From: an uncultured Methanobrevibacter sp.
GTDB lineage: Archaea; Methanobacteriota; Methanobacteria; Methanobacteriales; Methanobacteriaceae
Assembly (NCBI RefSeq): GCF_902784195.1
Contig: NZ_CACZTX010000003.1
Location: forward strand, 1-64,000
Reading direction: 5' to 3'
DNA length: 64,000 bases
The translations under genes were made by a program, and so were the position numbers. Shown here in pieces: positions 9,541-28,196 of this stretch. The notes beneath the pieces were generated by a model, which made no database searches, was not told the origin of the DNA, and saw only the letters and a program-made list of their open reading frames with translations. How positions within the stretch are numbered: the first letter of the stretch is position 1; the number at the start of each line of letters is the position of its first letter.

Positions 9541-10470
9541 TTAAAGTGTGGTAATATTACAACCATCACTTTCAACAATCAAGGTATGCTCTTTTTGTGA
9601 TACCCATGCACCTGTTCTTTCCTTAAGTGCAGCATATGGATAAATTGCCATAGCATCCCCTAATTGCTTAAGGCCTGAGTTCACTCTATGTTCATTGAAG
9701 TTTTCTGTAAGCCAGCGTCCACTAAATGGCAAGTAATGATAATTCTTTTCAATATGTTGAAGCATCCTTTGAGTATTTTTCATCCTAAATGGTTTTGACT
9801 GTAAAAATGAAAAGATATATGCATAAGGGCAGTCATTTACGATACCTTCACCATTTGTTGCAAAAGGTTCGATTGCTACAGCTTGTCCCTCTTCAAGAAT
9901 TGTCGGATCATTGTTGTCATAATTAGGCACTGAAATACCTGCATGCAAGTTCCAGTGTTCAAGGCTATGACCTGAAAGGTTTCTCACTGGATTGAGATTG
10001 TACTCCGCAATTGCCTCTTCAACTGCTCTTCCAACATCACAAACCTTCACTCCTGCTCTTACAGTGCTGATTGCAGCTTCAAGTCCTGCTGCAGATGCGT
10101 CAATGATTCTTTGGTTGAGCTCTAATGTCTCTTCATCAAATAGCTCTTCGAGATTGTCTCCAGGAACCATTATTGTAACAGCGGAATCTGCAATGTAACC
10201 ATTAACTTCAGCTCCAAGGTCAAGCTTTACCAAGTCCCCTGTAACCATTTTGTTGGTGTCTCCTGCAGGAGATGTGTAATGTGCAGTGATCTCGTTTATT
10301 GAAACGTTGCAAGGAAATGCAATCCCTGCACCTGACTTTAGTATTTCACTTTCCACAAATTCCACAAGATCGAGAATCGGCAGACCGTTTTGAATCATTT
10401 TTGAAGCGTCTGATCTTACTTTTGACACGATTTTTCCAGCTTCTTCATAAGATTTGATTTCATCAACCAT
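9541..10470 (-). CDS. map: Methionine aminopeptidase, type II
   Basis: Removes the initiator methionine from nascent proteins in the cytoplasm. The 309-residue product has the size and fold signatures of archaeal/eukaryotic MetAP2. Seen in order are a substrate-site segment near HYTSPAGDTN, the metal-binding DLGAEVNGYIADS segment, GHSLEHWNLHAG with the metal-ligand histidine, the IEPFATNGEG segment with its glutamate, and SQKEHTLIVE near the C terminus. The start at 10470 has an AGTGAT-type RBS 4 nt away. It is transcribed alone, opposite to its neighbours; the initiator tRNA lies 1.4 kb further on, which is probably coincidence. Confidence 0.93.
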   Translation of the reverse strand: MVDEIKSYEEAGKIVSKVRSDASKMIQNGLPILDLVEFVESEILKSGAGIAFPCNVSINEITAHYTSPAGDTNKMVTGDLVKLDLGAEVNGYIADSAVTIMVPGDNLEELFDEETLELNQRIIDASAAGLEAAISTVRAGVKVCDVGRAVEEAIAEYNLNPVRNLSGHSLEHWNLHAGISVPNYDNNDPTILEEGQAVAIEPFATNGEGIVNDCPYAYIFSFLQSKPFRMKNTQRMLQHIEKNYHYLPFSGRWLTENFNEHRVNSGLKQLGDAMAIYPYAALKERTGAWVSQKEHTLIVESDGCNITTL

Positions 10471-10718
10471 ATTATCACTTTGGTTTTAAGTATATTTTTT
10501 AATTTATTTTTTAATTTCTTTAGTATTAGTTAATCATAAGATGTCAGTATATTCATAAATTTTTAAACATTTTTATAAAAATTTTTATATACTCTTAATT
10601 ATATAATATACTTATTCTTATTTAAATATCTTTAATTTATATTTGAATAATTTTTAATGTTAATCGGTTTTAATGATTTTTTAAAATATGATTTATATGA
10701 TGTTATGGAGGAAAAAAT

Positions 10719-11120
10719 ATGGCTGCTGAACTTATTCCGGATCAAATATTTATGCTTATTTTAGTAATTATATTGGCTGTTGTTGTTATCATTGTTGTAA
10801 GCCAATGGAAAAAGGTAAGTCAATCCAATAATACTTTAAAATTAATGGAAAAAGAAATTGAGCTTAAGAAAATAGCTATGGTTGAAAAGGATTTAGAGAA
10901 CAAACGCATTATGGAAAATCCAATTCAATTGCCTGCTGAACAACAAGAACAGCTCACTCAAATCAGAGATTCCACTGCTGAAGTCATGAGCAATGTAGGA
11001 TACTTGCATAGTGAAATCAATGAACGTTTAGCTCGTCTTGAAGCTCAAACCGAACTTAAAAAGCTTGAAAAAATGCTTAAGGAAATTGAAGAAAAAGAGA
11101 AAAAACTTAACAAAAAATAG
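10719..11120 (+). CDS. Small membrane-anchored coiled-coil protein
   Basis: Unrecognised protein of 133 residues. A single hydrophobic segment (about residues 11-30, rich in Ile/Val) is followed by a long charged helical region with many Lys, Glu and Leu residues in heptad-like spacing to the end. A strong GGAGG at 10707-10711 supports the start. It sits 80 nt upstream of a second gene of the same architecture (11201), with which it is probably co-transcribed. The topology suggests an N-terminal anchor with a cytoplasmic or wall-facing coiled coil. No catalytic motif is visible. Confidence 0.75.
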   Translation: MAAELIPDQIFMLILVIILAVVVIIVVSQWKKVSQSNNTLKLMEKEIELKKIAMVEKDLENKRIMENPIQLPAEQQEQLTQIRDSTAEVMSNVGYLHSEINERLARLEAQTELKKLEKMLKEIEEKEKKLNKK

Positions 11121-11200
11121 ATTTTCAGTTTCTATCATCTTACTGATTTAATTTGTTTAGGTTTTTTAGAGATGAATAATTCTTATAATGAGGTTTTATT

Positions 11201-11719
11201 ATGGATATTATTGAATTATTAGCTGTCATTATTTTAGTCGCTGCTATAGTGTTTTTAGTGTACTATTACATTAAAACAGCAAACGATGGAAATATTGACA
11301 TTAAGGAAATTCTTAAATTTTCACCTAAGGACAATAACGTTAGCAATCTTGTTGATGAAGATATTCAAGAGAAGAAATCCATGGGTGATAAGATTAAATA
11401 TACCTTTAAGGACATTGATAAATCCTATGCTAACACTACAGATGCATTTTCAAAAAGATTGGATTCATTCTTGGATGAAAGAAGTGAGGAATTGATTGAA
11501 AGCTGGTCTTTAGTAACCACTGATGATTTATCCTCCTTAGAAGAAAGGTATACCACTGCTTGTGACAGCATTGAAGCTTTAGAGAAAAGGTTCAGTGAGT
11601 TCACCAATGCAACCGATGCTAAAATCGAAGATCTTGATAAACGTCTCAAAGCTTTAGAAGATGCAGAAAAAGATTTAGAGGAAGCAGAAGAAGTTGCAGT
11701 TGAAGCTGAAAAAGAATAA
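11201..11719 (+). CDS. Small membrane-anchored coiled-coil protein, acidic tail
   Basis: Unrecognised protein of 172 residues. One N-terminal membrane segment (about residues 5-25, ending YYYIKTAND) precedes a mixed region. A predicted coiled coil follows (about 95-160, with repeating L-E-E-R and L-D-K-R patterns), then a Glu/Ala-rich acidic tail. The same plan in the preceding gene suggests that the two act together, perhaps as a scaffold at the membrane; that is inference from architecture only. The start is preceded by AGGTTTT about 8 nt away. A T-rich stretch after the stop could terminate the pair. Confidence 0.7.
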   Translation: MDIIELLAVIILVAAIVFLVYYYIKTANDGNIDIKEILKFSPKDNNVSNLVDEDIQEKKSMGDKIKYTFKDIDKSYANTTDAFSKRLDSFLDERSEELIESWSLVTTDDLSSLEERYTTACDSIEALEKRFSEFTNATDAKIEDLDKRLKALEDAEKDLEEAEEVAVEAEKE

Positions 11720-11879
11720 ATTTTATTCTTTTTTTAATTTTTTTTATTTTAAAGACTAATTATCATATATTTATTGCTATTTAGGAGAGGGGAGCTCTTT
11801 CCCTTTCTTATGCAAATATTTATATATGATGGTGTCTAATATTATAATGTTAAAGGAACTTATCCTTGTGTATTCGTTT

Positions 11880-11954
<75 letters not shown>

Positions 11955-12144
11955 TTTTTTATGGAACAGTAATATAACATTGTTATATAACCCTATTTTT
12001 TTAATTTTGATAGAAACGATTGTTTTGCTTTCCAATCTTTCATTTCCACTTTTGAACTGCTTTTTTTGTTTTTATATTTTCATTACTAAATGGGATATAT
12101 TTATAAATATTAACAATAATAAATTAATAATGTATTAAATATAT

Positions 12145-12171
12145 TTTCAAATATATTTTATATTTTATAAA
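12145..12171 (+). promoter_or_regulatory. Second copy of the 27-bp AT box, upstream of ALP 3
   Basis: Identical over 27 bases to 4698-4724. The whole 337-base gap from the tRNA to ALP 3 otherwise shows only AT-rich sequence without a credible gene. Its position 121 nt before the ATG matches the first copy to within 17 nt. Confidence 0.35.
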
Positions 12172-12291
12172 GAAACTTTAATTGAAAAATATTTATGAAA
12201 GATTGACTTTAACTTAGTTTAAAAACTTTTATCTAGGTTTTAGTCATATGAAAATAGTTGTTGAAAAAAAGAAAATTACTGGAGGTGTTTG

Positions 12292-15200
12292 ATGAGAAGT
12301 AAAAGAATAATCGGTTTTAGTTTACTGTTCGTTATGGTTTTTCTTTTAATCGGATTAAACACTGCTTGCGCATCAAATATCGATGATTTGGATTATAATT
12401 TATCAGATAGCTTGGAATCCAGTCCAGTTTCCAATGCTATAGATCTTGATAATGATGGGGCTTCAGATGCTTCTGAATCCAATTCCATATCCGATTCAAT
12501 CGATGAAAGCAGCATATCCAATATGGATGATTCCATTGAAGAAATATCAAATGAGAATTCACAATCAGAATCCAAGATTGGAGATGGTGAAAAGTCAATA
12601 CACACTATAACCGAAGACAATTATTCAAGTTATTTTGATTCTGATGGTAATTTAATCAATTCATTGGTGAAAGCTAATGATACTATTAATTTGTCCGGTA
12701 ATTTTTCTAATAAGAAATTTATAATAAATATTCCTTTGACAATTACAAGTACAGAAAACAATGCAATATTGAAGAATTCTCCAATATACTACTATAATGT
12801 ATCAAATGAGAATTTTGCATATGATGCAATCGTTTCAAACTTGAAAATTGAATCAGACCTTCCAGACATATCTGCAGTTTGGGTAATTGGATCTAAAAAT
12901 ATCAAGATCTTGAATAATGATATTTTCACTACAGGACATAACGGCTATCCTATTTCCCTTGATGGCTTCACCTATAACTGTATTGTAGAAAATAACATCA
13001 TCAAGACAGTTGTTCCGGTAAACACAGCAATAGACTCATCAGAAGTCAATCATGATGAAGAGAATTCTGGAGACAACAGCAGTTGGCAGCATTCCGGTAT
13101 TAGCTTAAGGGATGCACATGGGAATTCAATTGTTAACAATGACATCACAGTTGAAAATTCCTATGGGGTATACCTTTGTTATGGTACTTCAACATCAAGC
13201 AACAACATCATAGCAAACAATACCATTAGAGCGACTTCTGAAACTCCTTCATTCTGGTCCTACGGTGTTTATATAACTGGAAACTATAACCACATAGAGA
13301 ACAATACCATTATACGCATGTACCGTGGAATCCATTCAAGCTATGCTCATAACTATATCATAGGAAACAAGATTTATGACATAAACGGTCTTGATGAGAA
13401 TAACGGTATCGGTGGAGACTATGGTATTTACGGTGGTAATGACACCTTGATTGCAAATAACTCCATTTACAATGCAGATGTGATTGGTGCAGGTATTCTT
13501 GTAGGTTCCAACAGTGACGTTTACGGAAACTATATCCAAATAAACAGCAGTGGAGACGGTATTAGAATAGGGGATGTTGAAGGCGGTCACAATTCAAGGG
13601 TTCACAACAATACAATAGACTTCTTATCAGGTGCTGGAATAAGCATTAAGGGAACTCCTCAAGATACTGAAGTCTATGACAACATTGTTAACTCGTTATC
13701 CAATATTGGTGCAAACCAAGGTTCCGGATTAGGAATTGGTATCTTATCCATTTACCAATCAAGATCCAGCAGACCATATAACATTTCCATTTACAATAAC
13801 ACTATCTACACTTCAAATGACTATGCAATAAACATTGCACAGTCATCTACTGAAAGTTGGTTATGTGAAAACAATCACATTGGAGATAGGCTTATCATCT
13901 ATCCTATTGCAATTGACTATTCACCTGAATGGGGAGATGGTACCGTTTATCAGGTAACTGAAGAGAACTACAATACCTATTTCGATTCAAACGGCAAGTT
14001 GAGAGACATTGTTAAGGATGGAGATGTATTGGTATTCAGCGGCAGCTTTTCACCTAAAGGCAAGATTGTCTTGAACAAGATTGTCAGCCTTATTGGTGAC
14101 AATGCATTTTTAAGGGATACCACTATCTTTGTCAATACCTCAAACTGTAAGGTTCAAGACTTCAATATCGTAAACAATGGTACTGATGACAGCAATTGCA
14201 ATCTATGGGGAATTTATGTTTATGAAGCTGATAATGAAGTGATTACAGGAAACAATATCACAATATGGGATAAGAATACATCTTATGGAATTTACCTTTG
14301 CGACTCCTATAACAATACAGTTGCAAACAACAGCATAAGATGTCAAGGGGACAATTTGGTATTTGCTCTCTTGACTTATGAGACATACAATACCCTCTTT
14401 GAAAACAATACCATTTTAGCTATTGGAACAAGTGAATTGTATCCTTATTATGAAACCATATGTATAGATGGAGTTCGCAGTATTTCAGAGCTTTCCAAAA
14501 CATATGGTGTGATATTGGACTTCTCAAGCGACAATCAATTCATTCACAATGACATTGAGGTCACTTCCACTGTAGAAGGTTTCCAAGTACCTTATAACCC
14601 TTCTGTAAATATTCTAATTGGTCTTTACATTTACTATGATTCCAATAGAAACAATATCAGTGAAAACAATGTATACATTCATGGACATGATCCATTCCTT
14701 TATGGAATGGGTTCATCTGGGGATGATACAAGTAAATCCGTGACTTATGCATGTGAAAACATTTTTAGCAGGAACAATATTACAATTGAAGCTGATTACT
14801 TTGCTATGGGTATGATTTTAAGACACAACTCTCAGGATACTCTTGTTGAAGAGAACTACTTCCAGCTTGATTCTAATAATTATACTTATGGTATAACCTT
14901 AGAGATATCCGATGGTGCTAAAATCTTGAACAATACTCTAAACAGTACCAGTAAGGCAGGTATTTATGCTATAGAGGGGTATGCGACAAGCAATAATGAC
15001 ATAAGTTACAATAAGATTTATTCAGATGGCAGTTTCAGTACCATTGCCCTTTATGCATCCAATCATAATAACATTACCTATAACCTTATTAGAGCCCGTG
15101 GAAATGAATCTCAAGACCCAGCACAAGGTCCTGAGCATCCGGATTCTGTAGACTTATTCAATACTGGAATTTCATTGCAAATGTATACCAATGATACTCG

Positions 15201-15753
15201 CATATCACATAATGACATTCTGCATGAAGACGCTCCCTTTGCAATTGATGTTGATGAAACAGTCACTGAAACGGTAATCAATGACAATATATTGTCTTCT
15301 AAAGATGCTGGAGGAACCGATGCAATTAATGATAAATCTGGCAAGGCTAAAATTCACGGCAACACCGGATCCAAATATAATCCTAATGGAGAAGGTTCCA
15401 ATGGTGGGTCTCGACCTTCCAATTCAGACAATTCTCAAGGCAATGGCGGAAATAACCTTATCCATACAAATGGGACTTCATCATATTCTGGAAATTCAGA
15501 TTCCTCTGGTTCAAGTGCTTTAGGTCAAATTGATTTAGGTTTGCTCGCTAATTCATTATCTTCTATTGGTGATGGAACTGGTGATGCGGGAGGCAGTGAA
15601 TCTGGCGATTTGTCTGACCTTTTAGCTAGTGAAATATCAGAGATTTCCGCTAAAACATTATCAGGTATTTATGTTCCTATTGCAGCATTGATTCTTGTAT
15701 TGGTTTTCTGTTTCGCATTCTTGGGCGTAAGAGACGAAGATGATGAGGAATAA
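12292..15753 (+). CDS. Adhesin-like protein 3, membrane-anchored beta-helix
   Basis: Predicted surface protein of 1153 residues. GGAGGTG at 12281-12287 supports ATG 12292 rather than the TTG at 12289. A signal peptide (to about residue 26, ...NTACAS) is followed by an acidic Ser/Asp linker and two homologous modules opening with EDNYSSYF (about nt 12613) and EENYNTYF (about nt 13960), each continuing as Asn-rich NosD-like beta-helix coils. A low-complexity Gly/Ser/Asn segment (about 1020-1110) leads to a hydrophobic helix, IYVPIAALILVLVFCFAFL, and an acidic tail ending DEDDEE. It lacks the Ig repeats of the other three ALPs, so it is anchored in the membrane rather than by Lys-rich domains. 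At about nt 14458 it contains one TICIDG unit where ALP 4 carries a 23-unit array. Adhesion is the inferred role. Confidence 0.85.
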   Translation: MRSKRIIGFSLLFVMVFLLIGLNTACASNIDDLDYNLSDSLESSPVSNAIDLDNDGASDASESNSISDSIDESSISNMDDSIEEISNENSQSESKIGDGEKSIHTITEDNYSSYFDSDGNLINSLVKANDTINLSGNFSNKKFIINIPLTITSTENNAILKNSPIYYYNVSNENFAYDAIVSNLKIESDLPDISAVWVIGSKNIKILNNDIFTTGHNGYPISLDGFTYNCIVENNIIKTVVPVNTAIDSSEVNHDEENSGDNSSWQHSGISLRDAHGNSIVNNDITVENSYGVYLCYGTSTSSNNIIANNTIRATSETPSFWSYGVYITGNYNHIENNTIIRMYRGIHSSYAHNYIIGNKIYDINGLDENNGIGGDYGIYGGNDTLIANNSIYNADVIGAGILVGSNSDVYGNYIQINSSGDGIRIGDVEGGHNSRVHNNTIDFLSGAGISIKGTPQDTEVYDNIVNSLSNIGANQGSGLGIGILSIYQSRSSRPYNISIYNNTIYTSNDYAINIAQSSTESWLCENNHIGDRLIIYPIAIDYSPEWGDGTVYQVTEENYNTYFDSNGKLRDIVKDGDVLVFSGSFSPKGKIVLNKIVSLIGDNAFLRDTTIFVNTSNCKVQDFNIVNNGTDDSNCNLWGIYVYEADNEVITGNNITIWDKNTSYGIYLCDSYNNTVANNSIRCQGDNLVFALLTYETYNTLFENNTILAIGTSELYPYYETICIDGVRSISELSKTYGVILDFSSDNQFIHNDIEVTSTVEGFQVPYNPSVNILIGLYIYYDSNRNNISENNVYIHGHDPFLYGMGSSGDDTSKSVTYACENIFSRNNITIEADYFAMGMILRHNSQDTLVEENYFQLDSNNYTYGITLEISDGAKILNNTLNSTSKAGIYAIEGYATSNNDISYNKIYSDGSFSTIALYASNHNNITYNLIRARGNESQDPAQGPEHPDSVDLFNTGISLQMYTNDTRISHNDILHEDAPFAIDVDETVTETVINDNILSSKDAGGTDAINDKSGKAKIHGNTGSKYNPNGEGSNGGSRPSNSDNSQGNGGNNLIHTNGTSSYSGNSDSSGSSALGQIDLGLLANSLSSIGDGTGDAGGSESGDLSDLLASEISEISAKTLSGIYVPIAALILVLVFCFAFLGVRDEDDEE

Positions 15754-15765
15754 AATTTCATTAGC

Positions 15766-15794
15766 AGGATAAATAAATCCTATTTATTTATTCT
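15766..15794 (+). terminator. Hairpin terminator after ALP 3
   Basis: AGGATAAATAAAT and ATTTATTTATTCT pair with one mismatch around a 3-nt loop, and a T-rich tract follows. It begins 13 bases after the stop codon. The remaining 298 bases to ALP 4 are AT-rich and hold only that gene's promoter and RBS. Confidence 0.6.
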
Positions 15795-16092
15795 TATTTT
15801 TTCTTTATTAGGAAATACCTGGCAAAAATTAATATTTTAAATTATTAAAGTTTCTATTTTTATTTTATTTTTTTTATTATTCATATTCGATTAGTTAAAT
15901 TTATATTATTATAATTTAATAAATATAAATGTATAAAATTAGTTTTATATTTATTAAATTATATTTTATTTTTTTATCAAGTTTGATTTATTATTTAAAA
16001 AAAACTTATTTAAATGAAATATAATTTAGTAATTTATTATTTTAATCTAATATGTTAAATGATTTATTTTATAAATCGAGGTGTTTAAACAT

Positions 16093-19000
16093 ATGAATTC
16101 TAATAAATTTATTCCAATGTTGGGATTATTGATTCTATTGATATTAGCTATTGGATCTGTAAGTGCAAGTGAGGTAGATTCAGATTCAATAATAGGGGAT
16201 AGTGATGCTAATATTGATTTAACTGCTGAAACGGCAATTAATGAAATTGATGATTCCAGTATTGATGATGAAGTAAATACTGGGGGCATCATTGCTAATG
16301 ATAATGAAAGCATTAGCGATAATGTAGGAAGTATTGATGGTGTTGAAAGTGGGGTAGGTGTGGAAAACCGTCTAGGTGCTAGCGCTGATAATGAAATTCT
16401 TGCATCTACTATACAATTTACAGAAAGCAAATATTCCACTTACTTTAATTCAAATGGAAATATCATCGCTGGAAAACTAAAAGCTGGAGACACTTTAGAC
16501 TTTTCAGGAAAGTTCACAGATAAAATGTTTATAATCAATATTCCTTTGATTATAACCAGTACAAAAGGCACAGCACAGTTTACCAATTGTGGATTTAGCT
16601 TTATAAATGGTTCAAGTGGTTCAAGCATTTCCAATTTAAAAATGAACAATTCTGTTGCTGACAGACCACTTATTGCAGCATCTGATGTAAGTGATATGGA
16701 AATTTATAATAATGACCTATTTGCTTCCGGTAGGGGCTCTCATCCTATGGCCTTTTCAAGAGTAAATAGATTGCATATTTATAGAAACACTCTCCAAACC
16801 ACTGGTTATGTACAGGGTTGGGGACATCCATCCGCTATGGTCTTAAATAATGCAGGGTCTTGTAATATCACACAAAATACAGTAATAACCAATGATTCAA
16901 ATGGTATTTATTTCAGTGGATATACTGCAAATACTGGAATGGGTGCTGGAGGAGATGCAGCAAGTTATTCTAATTACATTGTAAATAATACAGTTTCTTC
17001 CATTAGACCTCTACCTTCATCATTTGTTTATGCTATTCAAGTGATGAGTAGTTATAATTTTATTATTAACAATACAATTTATAATGTATATAGAGGAATT
17101 TCCACTACTGGTTCCAATAATCAAATAATCGGAAATAACATATCAGGAATACATGGAGCTTATTATAGTCAGACTACAGTAGAGCAAGGTGGGGAAGCTG
17201 CAATAATTTCAGGTTCAAATTCCATAGTCAAAGAAAACATTATTAGTAACTGTCTTTTCAGTCCAGATATAAAAGGGGCTGCTATAAATGTCAATAAGAA
17301 TTCTCTTGTAAGTGGTAATGTTATTCAAAATTGTTCTGGTATGGGTATCGTATTAACTGGGGGCAATATTACTCTCAATGGTAATAATTTAAATGTCACA
17401 GGATATGGGTTATTAGCTGAAGGAAACATTGCTAATGTTGAAATGGAGTTAAATGTCATAGATTCCAGTGATCAACATTCAATTCATTTGGCAAGAACTT
17501 CAAGAAATGATTTCCCTCATGACTTTATCATCCAAAACAACACTCTTTACAGTAATGCGGAAGAAGCTATTTATATGGATGATGTGTGTACAAATATATT
17601 GAGAGGTAACAATATTATCATTGGTGAGTCTGGAAGTCATATAGTTGATGAAAATAATACCCATATAATTAATGAAAAGAATTTTTATAATTATTTTTCA
17701 CTTACAGGTTCATTCAATAAAAGAGTTAATGAAGATGACACTATAATATTTGTAGGTAACTTTTCAAGTAAAGGAAAATTAAATATTAATAAAAAAGTCA
17801 TTATTCAAGGTGTAAATGCAGTATTTGAAGATACAACATTCCTTATTTCAGAAGTTGATGGTTTAATTTTTGAAAACATTAACATTACAAACCCTAATAA
17901 AAAACTATCTGATCGCTTATGGGGTATTCAAATAAGCAAATCTAATAATGTAACTATTAAAGATTGTAATATTTCCATTTACGATCCTTATTCAGCATTT
18001 GCAGTTTATGTATTGGATTCCAATGATTGCAAAGTAATCAATAACAGTTTAGAAGCAAAAGGTGATTACTTCACAGTAGCTTTATTCTCATTTAATTCCA
18101 CCAATCTTTTGATTGATGGAAATTCCATCAAAACCATTGGTCCTGGTGAAACTTACCTTTGCAACAACAGAAGCTGTTTAAACATTTTGGTTCAAGGTGT
18201 AACAATCTGTCCAGATGGAACCATTATCTGCCCAGATGGAACAACATATAGTCCTGGCGATTATGAGGTTTGCACTGACGGCACAATCATTTGTCCGGAT
18301 GGAACAACTATCTGCACTGATGGAACTACTATTTGTGCTGATGGTACTCAAATTTGTGCAGACGGAACCATGATTTGTGCTGATGGTACTCAAATCTGTA
18401 CCGATGGAACCATTATCTGTGCAGATGGAACACAATATGCTCCTGGACAATACACTACCTGTGCTGATGGTTCAATAATTTGTCCAGATGGAAAAGTAAT
18501 TTGTATTAATGGAACTATATATTCTCCAGAAGAATGCGAAAATCTCACAAATGGTGAAATCCGTTGCCCTGATGGCACTGTCCTTTGTCCAGACGGAACT
18601 GTTTTATGCACTGATGGATCTACTATCTGTCCTGATGGAAGAACAATTTGCGCTGATGGAACCATTATCTGTGCAGACAGGTATAAAATTTGCACTAATG
18701 GTTCAATAATTTGTCCTGATGGAACAACAATTGCTTCTGGTGATTACAATAATGAAAGTGGCGTAATTACCCTTCCAGATAATACTGTCATTTATGAAAA
18801 TGGAACTGTTATTTGCTCTGACGGCACAGTAATCTGTCCTGATGGCACTGGTGGCTCAGGATTATTGGATGGAGTTATTCCAGGAACCCATATGATTTCT
18901 GGCCTATTTAGAACATATGGTGCTTTATTTGTACATTCATCTAATATCAATTTCATAAACAATAATGTTAATGTAAGCTCAACCCTTGATCCTTTCTATA

Positions 19001-20214
19001 AGTTAAATGAGTCTTGCAACACTATTGCAGGAGTATTCATTCATTATGGAGGATTCAACAATACTATTGCAAACAATAACATTACACTTGTTTCAAATGA
19101 CCCAGTCATTTATGCTATAGGTATTGTTGGTGCAAGTTCAAACAGCACTGCAATTGGTTCTAAAAACAATTCCTTCATTGACAATAATGTTTTCATCAAA
19201 GGACCATACCATGGTGTTGGAATCTATTTAGGAAATAAAGCGATCAATTCAACATTTGCAAACAGTTTTGTAATCTCTGCAGTCAATGTGCATGAAATCG
19301 TAAACCGCACCCTTGTGGAAAATGATGAGAACGTTATTGATGGAAATACATTTGAGATAATCCCTCCTCATCATACTGCTTTAACTGTTTCAAGTGCTTC
19401 ATATAAATGGAATAATGGAAATAAATACGTTTCAATTACCCTTAAGGACATTAATGGTACATTGATTCCTAACCAAAGCATAGTTATAACAGTTGATGGC
19501 AAGAATTACACTGGCGTTACTGATGCAAATGGTGTAGCTAAAATCAAGGTTACAATAAGCAAAGTTGGTGCTTTTGACGTTGTTGCATACTTCAATGGCG
19601 AAGGAAACTACATTGCTTCAACCAGCAAAGGAAAACTCACTTTAACCAAAGACAGCACAAGCTTGACTTCAGCTAGCAAGACTTATACAGTCACTACCAC
19701 TTCAAAAACCATCGCAGTGACCTTAAAGGGTGGAAGTGGAAATGTAATTGCAAATAGAAAAGTCACAGCAACAGTAAATGGAAAGACCTACACTGCAACA
19801 ACCAATTCAAAAGGTGTAGCTACTTTCAAATTGACTTTAAAAACAGTAAAAACTTTTACTGTATCACTTAAGTTTGCAGGAGACAGCTATTACACAGCTA
19901 GCACCAAATCCATAAAAGTTAAGGTAACCAAAACAAAAACCAAATTGACTGTTCCTAAAAAGACCTATAAAAGGACTGCAAAAGTCAAGAAATTAACTGC
20001 AACCTTAAAGGATCAAACAGGAAAGGTCATCAAATCCAAAAAGGTTACTTTCACTGTCAACGGCAAGAAATACACTGCAAAAACCAATAAGAAAGGTGTA
20101 GCTACTGTAAAGGTTAAACTCTCTAGAAAGAAAACCTATAAGGTTACAGTTAAATTTGCTGGTGACAAGACTTACTATGCAGTTAAAAAGACAGGTAAAG
20201 TTGTAATAAAATAG
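16093..20214 (+). CDS. Adhesin-like protein 4 with Cys-Asp-Gly repeat array
   Basis: Predicted secreted surface protein of 1373 residues. GAGGTG at 16078-16083 lies 9 nt before ATG 16093, so the GTG at 16081 is part of the RBS. A signal peptide (to about residue 25, GSVSAS) and an acidic linker lead to a module opening ESKYSTYF, then NosD-like beta-helix coils homologous to ALP 3. A second module (FYNYFS, about nt 17680) follows. Within its beta-helix lies a 216-residue insertion (residues 704-919) of 23 short units of form I-C-x-D-G-T. Beta-helix coils resume at about nt 18890. Three Ig-like repeats (about nt 19366-19650, 19651-19929, 19930-20211) end the protein, the last Lys-rich and ending GKVVIK. 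There is no membrane anchor. A hairpin terminator follows, then the ExbB-like gene. Confidence 0.87.
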   Translation: MNSNKFIPMLGLLILLILAIGSVSASEVDSDSIIGDSDANIDLTAETAINEIDDSSIDDEVNTGGIIANDNESISDNVGSIDGVESGVGVENRLGASADNEILASTIQFTESKYSTYFNSNGNIIAGKLKAGDTLDFSGKFTDKMFIINIPLIITSTKGTAQFTNCGFSFINGSSGSSISNLKMNNSVADRPLIAASDVSDMEIYNNDLFASGRGSHPMAFSRVNRLHIYRNTLQTTGYVQGWGHPSAMVLNNAGSCNITQNTVITNDSNGIYFSGYTANTGMGAGGDAASYSNYIVNNTVSSIRPLPSSFVYAIQVMSSYNFIINNTIYNVYRGISTTGSNNQIIGNNISGIHGAYYSQTTVEQGGEAAIISGSNSIVKENIISNCLFSPDIKGAAINVNKNSLVSGNVIQNCSGMGIVLTGGNITLNGNNLNVTGYGLLAEGNIANVEMELNVIDSSDQHSIHLARTSRNDFPHDFIIQNNTLYSNAEEAIYMDDVCTNILRGNNIIIGESGSHIVDENNTHIINEKNFYNYFSLTGSFNKRVNEDDTIIFVGNFSSKGKLNINKKVIIQGVNAVFEDTTFLISEVDGLIFENINITNPNKKLSDRLWGIQISKSNNVTIKDCNISIYDPYSAFAVYVLDSNDCKVINNSLEAKGDYFTVALFSFNSTNLLIDGNSIKTIGPGETYLCNNRSCLNILVQGVTICPDGTIICPDGTTYSPGDYEVCTDGTIICPDGTTICTDGTTICADGTQICADGTMICADGTQICTDGTIICADGTQYAPGQYTTCADGSIICPDGKVICINGTIYSPEECENLTNGEIRCPDGTVLCPDGTVLCTDGSTICPDGRTICADGTIICADRYKICTNGSIICPDGTTIASGDYNNESGVITLPDNTVIYENGTVICSDGTVICPDGTGGSGLLDGVIPGTHMISGLFRTYGALFVHSSNINFINNNVNVSSTLDPFYKLNESCNTIAGVFIHYGGFNNTIANNNITLVSNDPVIYAIGIVGASSNSTAIGSKNNSFIDNNVFIKGPYHGVGIYLGNKAINSTFANSFVISAVNVHEIVNRTLVENDENVIDGNTFEIIPPHHTALTVSSASYKWNNGNKYVSITLKDINGTLIPNQSIVITVDGKNYTGVTDANGVAKIKVTISKVGAFDVVAYFNGEGNYIASTSKGKLTLTKDSTSLTSASKTYTVTTTSKTIAVTLKGGSGNVIANRKVTATVNGKTYTATTNSKGVATFKLTLKTVKTFTVSLKFAGDSYYTASTKSIKVKVTKTKTKLTVPKKTYKRTAKVKKLTATLKDQTGKVIKSKKVTFTVNGKKYTAKTNKKGVATVKVKLSRKKTYKVTVKFAGDKTYYAVKKTGKVVIK
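18202..18849 (+). repeat. In-frame 21-bp repeat array encoding (x-I-C-x-D-G-T) units
   Basis: The array codes for 23 Cys-containing units, mostly exact heptads such as TICADGT, IICPDGT and QICTDGT. Four longer breaks interrupt it: TYSPGDYEV, QYAPGQYTT, IYSPEECENLTNGE and a 27-residue TIASGDYNN-type segment. These breaks resemble one another (Y-S-P-G-x-Y), which indicates a higher-order repeat. Unit drift (P, A, T, S or I after Cys; N for D; K, R, S or Y for the last residue) shows that the array is not a recent single-step expansion. The reverse strand also stays open here purely because of the repeat. Confidence 0.95.
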
Positions 20215-20226
20215 ATTCAAATCAAT

Positions 20227-20250
20227 TTAGGAAGGCAGCTGCCTTTCTAA
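20227..20250 (+). terminator. Hairpin terminator after ALP 4
   Basis: TTAGGAAGGCAG pairs with CTGCCTTTCTAA (one G-T pair) as a tight palindrome, followed by ATGATTTTTTATTTC. It lies 13 bases after the ALP 4 stop and 60 bases before the ExbB-like gene, separating the two transcripts. Confidence 0.6.
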
Positions 20251-20309
20251 ATGATTTTTTATTTCAAATTTAAATATTTTTTTAATTATTTTATTTTTAT
20301 GGTGATTTA

Positions 20310-21053
20310 ATGATAAATATTGGAAATGCTTTGATTTTTGCAGATGAAGCTGCCTTTCAGGGATCAAATAATGGCTTGTTTGCATTTTTCTCAAATACTA
20401 ATGGTACTGGATTTCCTATACTGGATAGTTCATTGACTGCTATTACTCAGGCATTACAGATACCTGTAATCATTCTTTTAATAGCATTTTTAGTATTCGC
20501 TGTATATACTTTAGGAAAGCTTCTATCAGAACACCTTTCTCGTAAGAAAGTACCTGTTAGTTTAATCAAAGAAATGATTTACTCAATCTATGATGCGGAG
20601 TCTGCTGAAGATATTAAAAATGTGGTTAATAATGCAGATATTCAAAAGTCTCAAAAGAAGATCTTATCTGTACTGGCAGAGTCAGAGCATCTTGGTAAAA
20701 AGTCAAGGGAAACCCTAGCTCGTAGATTGATAGATAATGAAGAGGATAAGATTGCACAGAACCTCAACAAGACTGACATTGTCACTAAGATTGGTCCAAC
20801 CCTTGGATTGATGGGTACTTTAATCCCTATGGGTCCAGGTCTTGCAGCATTAGGTACCGGTGATGTAACCACACTTGCAAGTGCGATTACAATTGCATTC
20901 AATACAACAGTTATTGGTATTGGAGCTGGTGCTATTGCATACTTTGCATCTAAATTAAGACGTAGATGGTTTGGTGAATACCTTGCTAACTTGGATGCAT
21001 TGATGGATGCGATTTTAGATAATATTGACAAGAGAGATGAGAGACTTAAATAG
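20310..21053 (+). CDS. MotA/TolQ/ExbB-family proton channel protein
   Basis: Likely subunit of an ion-driven membrane motor. The 247-residue product has a hydrophobic segment at about residues 50-72, a charged cytoplasmic region (about 75-155), then the family signature GPTLGLMGTLIPMGPGLAAL and a last pair of membrane segments ending FASKLRRRW. This order is that of TolQ/ExbB/MotA proteins. GGTGAT at 20301-20306 supports the start. The next gene on the same strand is an ExbD-like protein, the expected partner, although 182 nt with two dyads separate them. The organism group has no outer membrane, so the classical TonB role cannot apply; the force may act on a surface or wall component. The neighbourhood of four ALPs is suggestive but not proof. 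Confidence 0.85.
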   Translation: MINIGNALIFADEAAFQGSNNGLFAFFSNTNGTGFPILDSSLTAITQALQIPVIILLIAFLVFAVYTLGKLLSEHLSRKKVPVSLIKEMIYSIYDAESAEDIKNVVNNADIQKSQKKILSVLAESEHLGKKSRETLARRLIDNEEDKIAQNLNKTDIVTKIGPTLGLMGTLIPMGPGLAALGTGDVTTLASAITIAFNTTVIGIGAGAIAYFASKLRRRWFGEYLANLDALMDAILDNIDKRDERLK

Positions 21054-21068
21054 TCACTGAAGTGATTG

Positions 21069-21150
21069 AAAATTATACAATATAATTTTGAAAACAATAA
21101 TTTTTCTTAATTGTTTTTAGAAAACAAGCTTTTATATTGTATACAATATA
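21069..21150 (+). promoter_or_regulatory. Two perfect dyads between the ExbB-like and ExbD-like genes
   Basis: A dyad with 9-base arms (AAAATTATA, loop CAA, TATAATTTT) spans 21069-21089, shortly after the ExbB-like stop. The 18-base perfect palindrome TATATTGTATACAATATA spans 21133-21150, 86 nt before the ExbD-like ATG. The second overlaps a likely TATA element and could be an operator. The first may be a weak terminator or processing site. Confidence 0.45.
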
Positions 21151-21235
21151 TTTAAAAAATTTTACAATAGATTAGAATTCATATGGTTTAAAATTTGAAA
21201 ATTTAATAAGGATTTCATATATTTTGGTGATTGTT

Positions 21236-21586
21236 ATGGCTCGTCGTCGAGGAAAAGGACGTTTTGACAGTGAGGAAGAAGACCCTATGGCAGGAACAGC
21301 TAACCTTGTAGATGCAATGTTGGTTATAGCTGTAGGCTTGCTTGTATTCTTAGTGCTTGCTTGGAATATGCAAAGCGTTTTATTCAATGACCAATTGACT
21401 CAGGAACAGAAGGAAAAGGTCATGGAAGCCATGAATCAGGAAGTGACTGAGGTTCAAGAGGGACAGATATTAAATGAAACTCCAGATACAAGCAATCAGA
21501 CTGGACAAGGCTATACTGAGATGGGTAAGGTTTATAAGGATCCATCTACGGGTAAGTTGATTATGGTTCAGAATAAGACTAATTAA
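21236..21586 (+). CDS. ExbD/TolR-like DUF2149-type membrane protein
   Basis: Predicted partner of the upstream ExbB-like channel. ATG 21236 is chosen because GGTGAT (21226-21231) is 4 nt upstream; the TTG at 21224 precedes the RBS. The 116-residue protein has an Arg/Lys-rich cytoplasmic N terminus and one membrane segment (about residues 21-42, opening NLVDAMLVIAVGLLVFL). The Asp at the start of that segment is in the position of the proton-carrying Asp of ExbD/TolR. A hydrophilic Gln/Glu-rich exterior domain ends the protein. The family name DUF2149 is from memory of methanogen annotations; the ExbD comparison rests on topology and the Asp. Confidence 0.75.
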   Translation: MARRRGKGRFDSEEEDPMAGTANLVDAMLVIAVGLLVFLVLAWNMQSVLFNDQLTQEQKEKVMEAMNQEVTEVQEGQILNETPDTSNQTGQGYTEMGKVYKDPSTGKLIMVQNKTN

Positions 21587-21699
21587 CCTTTCTTCTTTTT
21601 TTATTTTTTTAATATTTTTTTTAATATTTTTTATTTTATATTTTGACTTTTTTTATTCATTATATTTTATTTTAATAGCTATTGATTTTTTAATTCATT

Positions 21700-21709
21700 A
21701 TTTATACTA
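21700..21709 (+). promoter_or_regulatory. TATA element of RNase P RNA gene
   Basis: ATTTATACTA lies about 20-29 bases upstream of the inferred 5' end of the RNase P RNA, the normal archaeal TATA spacing. Confidence 0.5.
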
Positions 21710-21728
21710 GAAGAAATAAATTAATTTT

Positions 21729-22017
21729 AATGGTAAGCCGAAGACAGCTGCTGGTTTTATAACTAGGGAAACTCCGCACATCATATAGACTGTAAAGTTG
21801 AAAGACTTATGCTGAGAAGTATGACTCTGGAGCAGAAACGACACGGCCTTTGATGGATGACAATGATGCTTGACTGATGGACATTAAAGGAATCGGTGAA
21901 ACGGCCAATCTACAGGATGCAAGAACAAATATGCTGATGACCTCTAAGGGAAGCAGAGTAGTTCGCTAAGATGAATGCTGTATAAAACAGAATGTGGGTT
22001 ACTCTCGGCAGACCATT
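21729..22017 (+). ncRNA. rnpB: RNase P RNA, archaeal type
   Basis: Catalytic RNA that trims tRNA 5' ends. The terminal helix P1 is formed by AATGGT (21729-21734) and ACCATT (22012-22017). Conserved blocks are visible: AGGGAAACTCCGCAC near the 5' side (CR-I), GCAGAAACGACAC in the middle, and CAGAATGTGGGTTACTC near the 3' end (CR-V, AGAnnGGGCTTAC type). The length of about 289 nt fits the Methanobacteriales RNA. No protein frame crosses it. A pyrimidine-rich tract follows. Confidence 0.92.
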
Positions 22018-22060
22018 ACCCTTCTATTATTTTTATTTCTTTTTTTATTTTGATCTTATT

Positions 22061-23272
22061 TTATCTATTATTTAGGTCATTCCAAAGTTCAATTATTTTT
22101 TGAGCGATGTATTCTATTTCTTCTTTTGTATGGGTAGCTATAACAGTTAATCTTAATCTGCTCATATCTTTAGGAACTGATGGTGGTCTGATGGATGATA
22201 CTAAAATTCCCTCTTTTTCTAGCTTCTTAGAGAACCTGTTTGCCAAATCAGCAGGGCCTATGATGATTGGTATGATTGGTGTTTCTCCATCCACCACATT
22301 TAATCCTGAATCATTAAGGAGTTTTCTCATAAGGCCTGTATTTTCATTTAAATTGGATAAATATTCTTCACTATTCTCTTTCAATAAGTTTAAGGCAGCA
22401 TTTGCACTAGCTATTGTAGCTGGAGAAAGTGCTGTTGAGAATATGAAAGGTCTTGATTTGTTTATAAGATAATCTATGTAGACTTGCTTTCCACAAACGA
22501 ATCCTCCTTCTGATGCAAGTGCCTTGCTTAAGGTTCCTATTTGCAAATCAACAGATTCAGTTAAGTCAATTCCAGTCTTGTCCTTATAGTATTCAACTGT
22601 TCCTTTTCCAGTTTTACCGATTACTCCAGTTGCATGTGCCTCATCGATTATAAGAGTGCAGCTGTATTTATTAGCTATTTCTACAAGCTCTGGAAGCGGA
22701 GCAATGTCTCCGTCCATGCTGAATACTCCATCGCTTACAATAAAGAGATTTCCATCATTATTTGATTCAATCTCATCTAAAATAAGATTCTCAAGGTCTT
22801 TTGTATCCTTATGTTTGTAGACTCTGACTTTAGCTTTAGAGATTCTTGTTCCATCTATAATGCTTGCATGATTCAATTGATCAGAGAATATGACATCATT
22901 TTCTTTTGTAAGAGCATAAATTACTCCTAGATTAGTCATATATCCTGTATTAAAAATAAGTGTAGATTCAACGTTTTTAAACTCTGAGATATTGTTTTCA
23001 AGCTCTCTTGCCTCAAAAGAAGCCCCTGTAGTTAGTCTTGAACCAGTTGAACCGGTTCCATATTCATTAGCTTCCATTGATGCCTTAATGACTTGTGGAT
23101 GATGGGTTAATCCTAAGTAATTATTGGTTCCAAAGACAAGATATTCCTTATTATTCTTGTCAATTGCTTTAGTTGAGCTAATAAATCTTAAATCATCTAC
23201 TGTTCTTGTAAGATCATTGTTTTCAAGTTCTTCCAATTCTTTTTGAAGTTCCTTTTCAAGTTTTTGATTCAT
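22061..23272 (-). CDS. bioF: 8-amino-7-oxononanoate synthase (or 2-amino-3-ketobutyrate CoA ligase)
   Basis: PLP enzyme of the alpha-oxoamine synthase family, 403 residues. It condenses pimeloyl-CoA with alanine in biotin synthesis. Visible motifs are the DEAHATGVIGKTGKG segment with the PLP-pairing Asp, and IGTLSKALASEGGF with the Schiff-base Lys. A GTGSTGSRLTTG substrate segment lies earlier. The identity as BioF rather than the related glycine C-acetyltransferase rests mainly on the adjacent bioW, whose stop is 17 nt upstream of this start, so the two form an operon. The RBS before 23272 is weak. No other biotin gene is in the window. Confidence 0.85.
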   Translation of the reverse strand: MNQKLEKELQKELEELENNDLTRTVDDLRFISSTKAIDKNNKEYLVFGTNNYLGLTHHPQVIKASMEANEYGTGSTGSRLTTGASFEARELENNISEFKNVESTLIFNTGYMTNLGVIYALTKENDVIFSDQLNHASIIDGTRISKAKVRVYKHKDTKDLENLILDEIESNNDGNLFIVSDGVFSMDGDIAPLPELVEIANKYSCTLIIDEAHATGVIGKTGKGTVEYYKDKTGIDLTESVDLQIGTLSKALASEGGFVCGKQVYIDYLINKSRPFIFSTALSPATIASANAALNLLKENSEEYLSNLNENTGLMRKLLNDSGLNVVDGETPIIPIIIGPADLANRFSKKLEKEGILVSSIRPPSVPKDMSRLRLTVIATHTKEEIEYIAQKIIELWNDLNNR

Positions 23273-23289
23273 TTTTTCAGCTCTTTAGG

Positions 23290-24075
23290 TTATTCAATTA
23301 AAACGACTTGTTTTTCCAAGTAATCTATTAAATCATCCAATGTATAATCATCATCCAATAGGTTTGTATCCACAAAGAAGATTCTTCCCCCTATTGTATT
23401 TCCTTTATCTTTCATGAGAGATATTCTGTTATAAGTTGTTTCATTAGAGATGTATCCTGTTAGATAGTTTGGATCATCAGACCAGCATAGTTCAGCTATT
23501 ATTCCCTTGCAGCTTGTAACCTTTGAAGCAAGAACCAATGCCTCATTAAAGTGTATTCCAGGAATGTCCTCTTCATTGACATCATTTGCAGGATTGATCT
23601 TATCAATCTTATCATATTCAAAATTATCTGCAAAACCCATTCCTGTAGCTCTAACGCCTCTTGAGCCTCTATCATCCAGTCTATTTCCATTATCCTTATC
23701 TATGAGTATTGCTCCATGCATGCTGTCTTGAAGCTTTAAGAGAGAGTCAATTCCATTTTCAATAGCTATTTCTTCCACATCGCTTTCTTTAAGAAGTTCT
23801 TTAGCTAATTCCAATCCTTCCTCTTTTGATTTCACATCAAATTCCTTTATTGATAATTGAGGAATGTAAACAATGTCTTCTTCATTCACTTTTTGAATTT
23901 TTATATTGATAAAGTCTACACTGCCTTTTTCATGATTTAGAGCCCTTTGATACATTCTGATTATTTCATCCTCAATCTCATCCTCTCTTAAAATACGTTC
24001 AGCACCGGATATATGTTTTCCTCCCTTTTCATGAGGGCCACCTTTTGAAGAACGCATTTTTATATTGTACAACAT
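23290..24075 (-). CDS. bioW: 6-carboxyhexanoate-CoA ligase (pimeloyl-CoA synthetase)
   Basis: Activates pimelate to pimeloyl-CoA, the first committed step of the BioW-type biotin route; the product is the substrate of BioF next door. The 261-residue protein opens with the family pattern LYNIKMRSSKGG and continues GGKHISGAERIL, a recognisable BioW signature, with a RGSRGVRATGMGF segment near residue 140. A GGCGA-type RBS lies 5 nt before ATG 24075. It is the first gene of a bioW-bioF operon on the minus strand. Confidence 0.88.
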   Translation of the reverse strand: MLYNIKMRSSKGGPHEKGGKHISGAERILREDEIEDEIIRMYQRALNHEKGSVDFINIKIQKVNEEDIVYIPQLSIKEFDVKSKEEGLELAKELLKESDVEEIAIENGIDSLLKLQDSMHGAILIDKDNGNRLDDRGSRGVRATGMGFADNFEYDKIDKINPANDVNEEDIPGIHFNEALVLASKVTSCKGIIAELCWSDDPNYLTGYISNETTYNRISLMKDKGNTIGGRIFFVDTNLLDDDYTLDDLIDYLEKQVVLIE

Positions 24076-24443
24076 ATTTTCGCCTAGATTTATAATAATT
24101 TTTATCTTGCAGTTTACTATAATTTATTTGTTTTTCATCCAATATTAAGTTTTTATAAATTTGATTTTTTGCATAGATTTTTTATTCAATTTAATTAATT
24201 TTAGATACATTTAAAATAAGGCTTCACCGAATTAAGTATAATCTAATTAATCATAAATATATTTAAATTGAATTATTTTTTAAAAAATATATTTTAAATT
24301 AATAGTATCTACATAGGTTAATATAAATTTTTAATTTTAGTTAAATTTTAAAAAAATATCTAAGTTCAAAATAAGAAAAATAAGAAAAATAATAGAAATT
24401 AGAAAAAATTTTAAAAAAAGAAAATAAGAAAAAAAGGAATTAT
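24076..24443. other. Intergenic region: bioW promoter and dnaJ 3' flank
   Basis: These 368 bases separate the end of dnaJ from the start of bioW on the same strand. They are about 85% AT, with TATA-like AATTATTATAAAT on the minus strand close to bioW. I see no gene, no RNA fold and no convincing biotin operator here. Confidence 0.6.
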
Positions 24444-25607
24444 TTAAGGATTGTTTATAGCATCTTTTACCTTGTCAAAGATTCCCTTTTTATAGACTTT
24501 AATTTCGTCGCCACTGATTTCTCCAAATTGAATCAAGAGTTTTTTCTGTTCTTTGGAGAGCTTTTGTGGAACAACCACTGTAATGTTTACATAAAGGTTA
24601 CCTTTTCCTGCACGTCTCATGTAAGGCATACCTTGATCCCTTAATCTGAATGTGGTTCCGCTTTGGGTTCCAGGTGGAATCTTAAGCTCGACTTCCCCAT
24701 TGATTGTTGGAATGTCTACAGTGTCACCTAAACTTGCTTGGACGAAACTGATTTGCTTTTCATAGTAGAGGTTTGCACCATCCCTTTCAAAGTATTCGTG
24801 TCTTTTAATGTAAATCTCAACGTAAAGATCTCCATTTCCACCGCCAACATCTCCAACATTACCTTCACCGGAGACTCTTAAGCGGTTTCCATTTTCAACA
24901 CCTGCTGGGATTTTGATGTTAAGGGTTTTGCTTTCCTTAATGGTTCCTCTACCTTTACAGTTGTGACATGGCTCCTTGATGATTTTACCGGTACCATTAC
25001 ATTCGCCACATTGCACTACATTCATCACTTGTCCAAATAGGCTTTGTCTGATTTGTTTTCTTTGACCGGTACCTCCACAGACAGGACAGGTTTCAACTTC
25101 ACTTCCAGGTTCCGCTTTTGAACCTTCACAGACTGGGCAGAATACATCGTGTCTTACAGTGACTTCCTTATCAGCACCATTAGCTGCTTCCTCTAAGGTG
25201 ATTTCGACTTCAGTGTAGATGTCGCTTCCTCTTCTTGGACCTGTACTGCGAGACCTTGATCTTCCAGTACCAAATCCGAATAAGTCGAAGATGTCTTCTA
25301 TTCCGCCTCCTCCAAATCCTTGGAAGATGTCTTCAAAGTTTACATTTCTAAAGATATCCTCGTTAGAGAAGCCTTCCATACCTGCATGACCGAATTGGTC
25401 ATATCTTTGTCTTTTCTCTTCATCAGATAAAACAGCATAAGCTTCACTGATTTCCTTGAATTTTTCAGTAGCTTCCTCTTTCTTATCATCTTCCACAACG
25501 TCAGGATGGTATTTTCTAGCTAATTTACGATAAGCCTTTTTAATCTCTTTCTCATCAGCGGTTTTGTCCACTCCGAGAACTTCATAATAGTCACGCTTCT
25601 CTGCCAT
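24444..25607 (-). CDS. dnaJ: Chaperone protein DnaJ
   Basis: Hsp40 co-chaperone that delivers substrates to DnaK and stimulates its ATPase. ATG 25607 is chosen because GGTGAC lies 4 nt upstream; the frame begins 18 nt earlier. The 387-residue protein has a J domain ([12 protein letters not shown] motif in KYHPDVV), a Gly/Phe-rich linker ([12 protein letters not shown]), and four CxxCxGxG-type zinc motifs at about residues 145-215 ([32 protein letters not shown]). The C-terminal substrate-binding domain follows. It is the most distal gene of grpE-dnaK-dnaJ but is separated from dnaK by 498 bases including a hairpin, so it probably has its own promoter. Confidence 0.95.
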
Positions 25608-25912
25608 TTCGTCACCTATAAACATTAATTGTAATTGATTATTTAAGAATTCATGATTTTTTTTAATGAGTCATATTATTTTAAAAATAGTATTGAACTA
25701 TTAATTAAAATTTAATTAAATTACCTAATCATTACTTAATCAGCAATTTTTCTCAGTAATTTTTTCTTAAAATAAAATAATTTAATTAAATTTTAACTAA
25801 TGATAAGTTACTAAATTAATTATTAGTTAATTTTAATATTTAAACTTAATTTAATTTGCACTAGTTTTTGATTCTTTCATTTATTCTCAATATAATAATT
25901 TTTTAATAAAAA

Positions 25913-25980
25913 GAATTCTTTAGACATTAAAAGGTTGTAAGTGGCTAAGAAAAATCAAGGAGGAATGTCTAAAAGAATTC
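25913..25980. repeat. 16-bp inverted repeat in the dnaK-dnaJ gap
   Basis: GAATTCTTTAGACATT (25913-25928) is the reverse complement of AATGTCTAAAGAATTC, and 25964-25980 carries that sequence with one extra A. The 35-base loop includes AAGGAGGAATG on the plus strand. The element lies in the 498-base gap between dnaJ and dnaK and is more GC-rich than its surroundings. It could be a stable RNA hairpin, a small mobile-element remnant or a regulatory structure ahead of dnaJ. Confidence 0.7.
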
Positions 25981-26040
25981 AATTTATTATTTCTATTTTT
26001 TGAGAGGTTATAAGTAAATATGACAAATCAAAAAATAAAT

Positions 26041-26085
26041 AGATTAAAAGTTATTATTAAAATATTTTAATAATTTTTTTAATCT
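26041..26085 (-). terminator. Long hairpin terminator after dnaK
   Basis: AGATTAAAAG...TTAAAATA on one side pairs with TATTTTAATAA...TTTAATCT on the other over about 20 base pairs with a small bulge. On the dnaK strand it begins 20 bases after the stop codon and is followed by ATTTATTTTTTG. Confidence 0.65.
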
Positions 26086-26105
26086 ACTGCTAATTTTGAT
26101 TCAAA

Positions 26106-28004: not shown

Positions 28005-28196
28005 AGTTTTCACCTTTACATTTTGTTTTTTAATAAAAGTTATTTTGATTTTTTTTAATTTTCAAATATTTCAATCGTTTAAGATATTTTTAAGTTTTTA
28101 AAATATTTGATAATAAAAATTATTTTAATTTTTATTTTTTTAAAATAATTTATAAATATGAATTTTAATTTTTATAATAATTTTTTATCATTGTTT

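Follow-up and report, generated by a model that had tools for sequence, protein, structure and literature searches.

A secreted beta-helix adhesin-like protein of an uncultured Methanobrevibacter species carries, within a single loop, an array of 23 Cys-x-Asp-Gly units in which both the cysteine and the Asp-Gly turn are under selection. Across its orthologs the motif is retained in that loop while the repeat period changes, an unusual course of evolution, and the gene is accompanied by ExbB-type and DUF2149 genes in its own genus and by a CobN-type gene in a sister genus. As the best single account of this combination, although one to which we give somewhat less than an even chance, we propose that the array would serve as a multivalent thiol ligand, catching a transition metal or metallo-tetrapyrrole for a neighbouring hmuSTUV-like module. 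The protein class itself is known, and the array is a new variant within it: like Methanobrevibacter adhesin-like proteins, it combines a beta-helix with a C-terminal Big_1-type domain (Pfam).

The array gene occupies 16081..20214 on the + strand of the window (the whole 64,000-nucleotide stretch of DNA analysed) as an open reading frame of 1377 aa beginning with GTG. Its N-terminus, MNSNKFIPMLGLLILLILAIGSVSA, is hydrophobic and signal-like as judged by eye; Pfam assigns Beta_helix, Big_1 and Big_3_5, the last two forming Ig-like domains at the C-terminus. The array (18208..18855, +; residues 710-925) is set between beta-helix flanks, one 5' (17737..18159, +; residues 553-693) that is kept in orthologs and one 3' (18886..19420, +), so that an earlier note on this DNA was right to describe an insertion with beta-helix on both sides. 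The 23 C-x-[D/N]-[G/R] units reported there were counted again at residues 710-919; its span of residues 704-919 fits a start at Met5 and becomes 708-923 when counted from the GTG. Units start at residues 710 and 717, 731-780 (eight), 794-808 (three), 829-878 (eight), and 912 and 919, giving blocks of 2-8-3-8-2. The cysteine is preceded mostly by Ile, Leu or Val and followed by Pro, Ala or Thr, with D-G-T/S as the turn; Asp is present in 21 of the 23 units and Gly in 22. Both eight-unit blocks (18271..18438, residues 731-786, and 18565..18732, residues 829-884, both +) consist of exact heptads, and tandem duplication is visible in the DNA, with a 42-bp period in the first. The heptads are indeed mostly exact, with 18 exact successions observed against a maximum of 0 among 2000 shuffles of the protein sequence. 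Only a single weaker match to the unit, at residue 694, lies apart from the array, 26 of the protein's 34 cysteines fall within residues 690-930, and C-x-D-G is rare in the window's other five frames (0-4 per frame).

Four spacers interrupt the array, as had been claimed, and they prove to be mostly degenerate heptads that have only a loose [SA]-[PS]-[GE]-x-[YC] likeness in common. Spacer 1 (SPGDYEV, a degenerate heptad; 18250..18270, +) and spacer 2 (APGQYTT; 18439..18459, +) keep the register; spacer 3 (SPEECENLTNGEIR; 18523..18564, +) comprises two degenerate heptads, one of them with a Cys; and in spacer 4 (18733..18813, +) the cysteines of degenerate heptads are replaced by Leu or Tyr (LPDNTVI, YENGTVI) and the register is off by one. 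The corresponding gaps are 14, 14 and 21 residues, in register, and finally 34, out of register. No clean higher-order period, such as had been suggested, emerges from the 2-8-3-8-2 blocks.

In M. olleyae SIG14 (L031/G018) the array is present gap-free at 89% identity and, because this is an independent species, assembly error is excluded as its origin. Between the two arrays the codons of the 23 cysteines differ by 11 synonymous and 0 replacement changes, against 8 synonymous and 7 replacement changes at the x position that follows; Asp codons show 5 and 2, and Gly codons 6 and 1. Over 30 array-region pairs, which are not independent of one another, the synonymous/replacement counts are 91/14 for Cys, 124/2 for Asp and 133/7 for Gly, compared with 108/41 for x and 1022/599 for all other codons. 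Thus, the cysteine and the Asp-Gly turn are both selected. In arrays built from 14-mers, Asp and Gly are conserved no less than Cys, which is missing from some units, and the turn itself may therefore matter.

Array matches are confined to two genera of the family, its own (g1) and a sister genus (g9); among the phylum's other genera searched, array-level matches were found nowhere else. The array also weakly matches open reading frames of ~600-650 aa in many family genomes, at about 25% identity, probably representing another Cys-rich protein. A query with the 3' flank, which involves no selection for Cys, recovered orthologs or paralogs in 96 of 139 family genomes, and the insertion site was read in 68 proteins drawn from array and flank matches, with some others inspected by eye. 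The motif C-x-[D/E/G/S/N]-G occurs once or more at the site in all 56 scored g1 and g9 orthologs, and three times or more in 46 of them, fractions that are biased upward because the scored set was partly picked through array matches. Cysteine density is 8.7 per 100 aa at the site and 0.85 elsewhere, and 495 of the 601 site cysteines belong to a C-x-D-G. Their spacing is most often 7 (212 cases) or 14 (165), followed by 5 (24), 6 (20) and 4 (16).

The variety behind these counts is considerable. One own-genus ortholog (G019, L082:7431-11555, minus strand) has at the same insertion site an unbroken 11-fold tetrapeptide (CLDG/CADG), (CLDG)11; the ortholog in G024 reads CADGCIDGCTDGCVDG... there; others have NCLDG pentads (G098), SCVDGS hexads (G066), heptads of CTDGSTV and CPEGNTV form, or 14-mers (CIDGNELVIDGRSY), and TCVGG pentads occur in a third genus (g8). 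Unit number, the comparison of which the earlier note had advised, ranges widely among species, from 1 to 35. Where the array is lacking in g9, one group carries CIGQCLGDVLKEHCLDG and certain orthologs retain CIGQCLGD...HCLDG, with three or four cysteines. At the same site no C-x-D-G-type motif is present in proteins of genus g12, and no Cys in the own-genus homolog G026 or in a g3 ortholog that adjoins CobN. Judged from these sequences, what the orthologs have in common is the C-x-D-G motif and not the length of a coil. A regular solenoid needs a constant coil and, with periods of 4, 5, 6, 7 and 14 at one ortholog site, cannot be the common feature; the short-coil solenoid put forward earlier is thus not supported as a general explanation.

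Matches to named repeat families follow the period. DUF6799 (PF20606), a heptad DG repeat as in the array, scores 54.1 bits on the array protein and 59.1 on the G023 ortholog against a curated cut-off of 26.8; it falls below that cut-off for g9 heptad orthologs (L043, 22.6; L058, 19.1) and is absent from the Pfam listing of the 14-mer (L040), mixed (L042) and (CLDG)11 (L082) orthologs, the last of which has no repeat-family match in Pfam. Conversely, the grass antifreeze beta-roll LbR_Ice_bind (PF21300), a family in which we know of no role for Cys, reaches 32.8 bits (cut-off 30) on a 14-mer ortholog and is not among the Pfam matches of the window's heptad array. Since the family that is matched, if any, changes when the period does, both are read as pattern matches, and they are not good evidence of descent. 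To the assertion that no named family has this pattern, DUF6799, scoring above its cut-off on the window's own array, is thus an exception only at the level of pattern; that the array is neither a NosD coil nor an Ig repeat is upheld. A search of the accessible literature found no paper on DUF6799 or DUF2162. Scores below the Pfam cut-off were obtained for the CPAP G-box (Tcp10_C, PF07202; 28.2 bits, cut-off 36) and the MORN repeat (10.9 bits, cut-off 22.5); an NCBIfam MXAN_6577-like cysteine-rich protein (20.9 bits versus 100) was rejected, and a sequence search of the PDB gave nothing convincing (TRIM71 at E 0.17).

AlphaFold models, made from alignments that took in one ortholog, are of low-to-moderate confidence (pLDDT 53 over 256 aa, 72 over 55 aa) and place a short strand at each seven residues. 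With the short pLDDT 72 model, Foldseek listed 4ld1, 4bxp and 4bxq (CPAP G-box) among its top rows at E 0.07-0.13, and the nearest solved folds to these weak models, CPAP G-box and MORN, are single-layer beta-meanders and not coils. Like the models, CPAP/SAS-4 G-box and MORN combine short strands with tight turns; unlike the array, they are eukaryotic structural proteins without a Cys signature. With a 14-mer ortholog scoring a beta-roll family as well, the array may be a meander, a beta-roll or a flexible loop.

Directly 3' of the array gene, on the same strand, lie a MotA/TolQ/ExbB-type protein (20310..21053, +; 95 bp away; Pfam PF01618, E 4.6e-12), syntenic in the genus, and a DUF2149 protein of the HmuV family (21224..21586, +; Pfam PF09919, E 3e-23; PMC10434189). 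All nine own-genus loci long enough to include both genes show this order (the window, G017, G018, G019, G021, G022, G023, G029 and G031). Upstream, a further beta-helix adhesin-like protein with a C-terminal membrane anchor (12289..15753, +) takes the place that CobN holds in the sister genus, where a CobN-type gene stands directly upstream of the array gene, on the same strand, in all 46 genomes in which a single contig holds the two genes. CobN is likewise beside the array-gene ortholog in two g6 genomes and one g3 genome (within 3.3-4.6 kb), within 5-7 kb of it in g2, g7 and g8, and 11-21 kb off on the opposite side in g12. Read by eye, the adjoining CobN starts with a signal-like sequence and has a membrane helix at its C-terminus, so that its chelatase domain is probably outside; a second CobN lies in a CobN-DUF2162-ExbB-DUF2149 row, the order of hmuSTUV. 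Across 9541-28013 of the window the order M24 peptidase, two small genes, surface proteins, DnaJ and DnaK is common to the sister genus, and because the outer genes (M24 peptidase, the two small genes and DnaJ) are shared by both genera we regard the two as one ancestral locus.

The source genome, which is 99.8% complete, contains no CobN, and the array does not need CobN there, a main weakness of our proposal. Its sole DUF2162 gene is at C1:197241, away from the array locus. This gene belongs to a DUF2149-DUF2162-ExbB row (L154:4761-10682, contig C1) that is followed by a 1282-aa beta-helix paralog lacking the Cys motif and then by an ABC ATPase, which is a second link of the array protein's lineage to the ExbB module. 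Two more ExbB-DUF2149 pairs in this genome (L078:4856-8302 and L079:2471-5902) each sit behind a secreted, membrane-anchored protein of ~700 aa without a Pfam match. Neighbourhood is not function, and the wide occurrence of DUF2149 counts against our proposal: it is present in most family members, and some of the four DUF2149 genes of the source genome adjoin unrelated proteins. A literature search combining Methanobrevibacter adhesin-like proteins with CobN or cobaltochelatase returned only a methanogenesis genome review.

Beyond cellular archaeal genomes, no relative of the array was found in viral contigs, where a search for the heptad pattern gave four chance matches without a related protein, or in phage records. 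Among plasmids, one weak tblastn match, on a Borreliella valaisiana plasmid (NZ_CP116876.1:15138-15485; 32% identity, E 1e-13), falling under a plasmid maintenance protein, is likely compositional.

A functionless array, lengthened neutrally by replication slippage where the loop permits it, would agree with the 42-bp tandem duplication and with array lengths that differ among species; it is very improbable, and was already disfavoured, given Cys codons with many synonymous and zero amino-acid changes against M. olleyae SIG14 and several genera that keep the same motif despite different spacers. The same variation in unit number, from 1 to 35, would suit an adhesive or thiol-reactive loop whose cysteines attach to or cross-link with other cells, mucins, sulfide or wall polymers, unit number serving as surface variation. 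The protein belongs to the adhesin-like class, and whole cells are bound by sera raised to four adhesin-like proteins of M. ruminantium (PMC2812497). We nevertheless hold this reading to be distinctly unlikely, since the nearest species pair has a gap-free array with zero Cys replacement, and adhesion leaves the chelatase and ExbB partner genes unexplained.

A further reading is a structural stalk. Rigid heptad beta-structure, stabilised by disulfides or thiol stacking and arranged either as a single-layer G-box/MORN-like meander or as a 14-residue beta-roll of two heptads, would raise an adhesive tip off the wall, with array number setting its length. The modelled strand at each seven residues, the nearest folds, the 14-mer ortholog above the antifreeze beta-roll cut-off and the strong conservation of Asp and Gly all favour it. 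However, site periods of 4, 5 and 6 suit neither geometry, the models give little confidence in the fold (pLDDT 53 and 72, and for the short one no Foldseek E better than 0.07) and some relatives carry just one to four cysteines without an array, leaving the stalk unlikely.

The metal-ligand reading, the metal-site part of which was anticipated by the earlier note and is plausible, would combine these elements as follows. The expanded, length-variable Cys-x-Asp-Gly loop would emerge at a constant position from the beta-helix of a protein that is secreted and associated with the wall and, if extracellular and reduced as we infer, offer many thiolates, each beside a carboxylate in a tight turn. 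It could then bind, through many sites at once, a metallo-tetrapyrrole or one of the soft transition metals Ni, Co, Fe and Zn, which would be passed to a neighbouring module of CobN/HmuS-like chelatase, DUF2162, ExbB-type proton channel and DUF2149, presumed analogous to Bacteroidota HmuSTUV. The chelatase, present in sister genera, would be surface-anchored and, where present, would put in or take out metal, and the ExbB-DUF2149 pair would provide energy. Thiolate and carboxylate in high copy suit capture by avidity, so that changes of spacing would be tolerated, as is seen. More doubtfully, the whole may constitute an unrecognised surface device of Methanobacteriaceae, in which a variable-period thiol-carboxylate array on a beta-helix, an external CobN/HmuS-like chelatase and a proton-driven ExbB-DUF2149 pair acquire metal or scavenge tetrapyrroles (heme, cobamides, F430) across the pseudomurein wall. 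Such a device, if real, would explain what those archaeal CobN homologs do that are still without a role. Much of a gut-methanogen genome is given over to adhesin-like proteins and, to our knowledge, nearly none has an assigned function; the fixed link between one adhesin lineage, whose Cys array is selected, and both a surface chelatase and ExbB-DUF2149 joins the adhesin and CobN questions, and both become testable in culturable species.

The hmuYRSTUV system of Bacteroidota comprises the CobN-like de-chelatase HmuS, HmuT, the ExbB-like HmuU and the DUF2149 protein HmuV (PMC10434189, PMC12583661, PMC13227078); HmuS takes iron from heme, and its archaeal CobN-type homologs are abundant and of a role called unclear (PMC12583661). 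CobN, ExbB and DUF2149 share one row in that system as they do at sister-genus loci, and ExbB and DUF2149 are adjacent at the window's array locus too. The array locus differs in that a CobN/HmuS-type chelatase is missing from the source genome, that the DUF2162 membrane protein is not at the locus (equating HmuT with DUF2162 is an assumption), and that a Cys-array beta-helix protein stands where Hmu has its surface partner HmuY/HmuR. Furthermore, pseudomurein-walled archaea have no outer membrane, unlike Hmu-bearing Bacteroidota. Work on M. ruminantium M1 counted among its surface proteins a chelatase H subunit that has terminal membrane helices, and vaccines against rumen methane have been attempted with surface proteins of the adhesin-like kind (PMC2812497). 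Methanobrevibacter adhesin-like proteins, as described in the accessible parts of PMC2812497 and PMC11532034, resemble the array protein in their signal-like N-terminus, beta-helix and C-terminal Ig-like domains; those parts mention no Cys-x-Asp-Gly array, and the array lineage differs also in its constant association with chelatase/ExbB genes.
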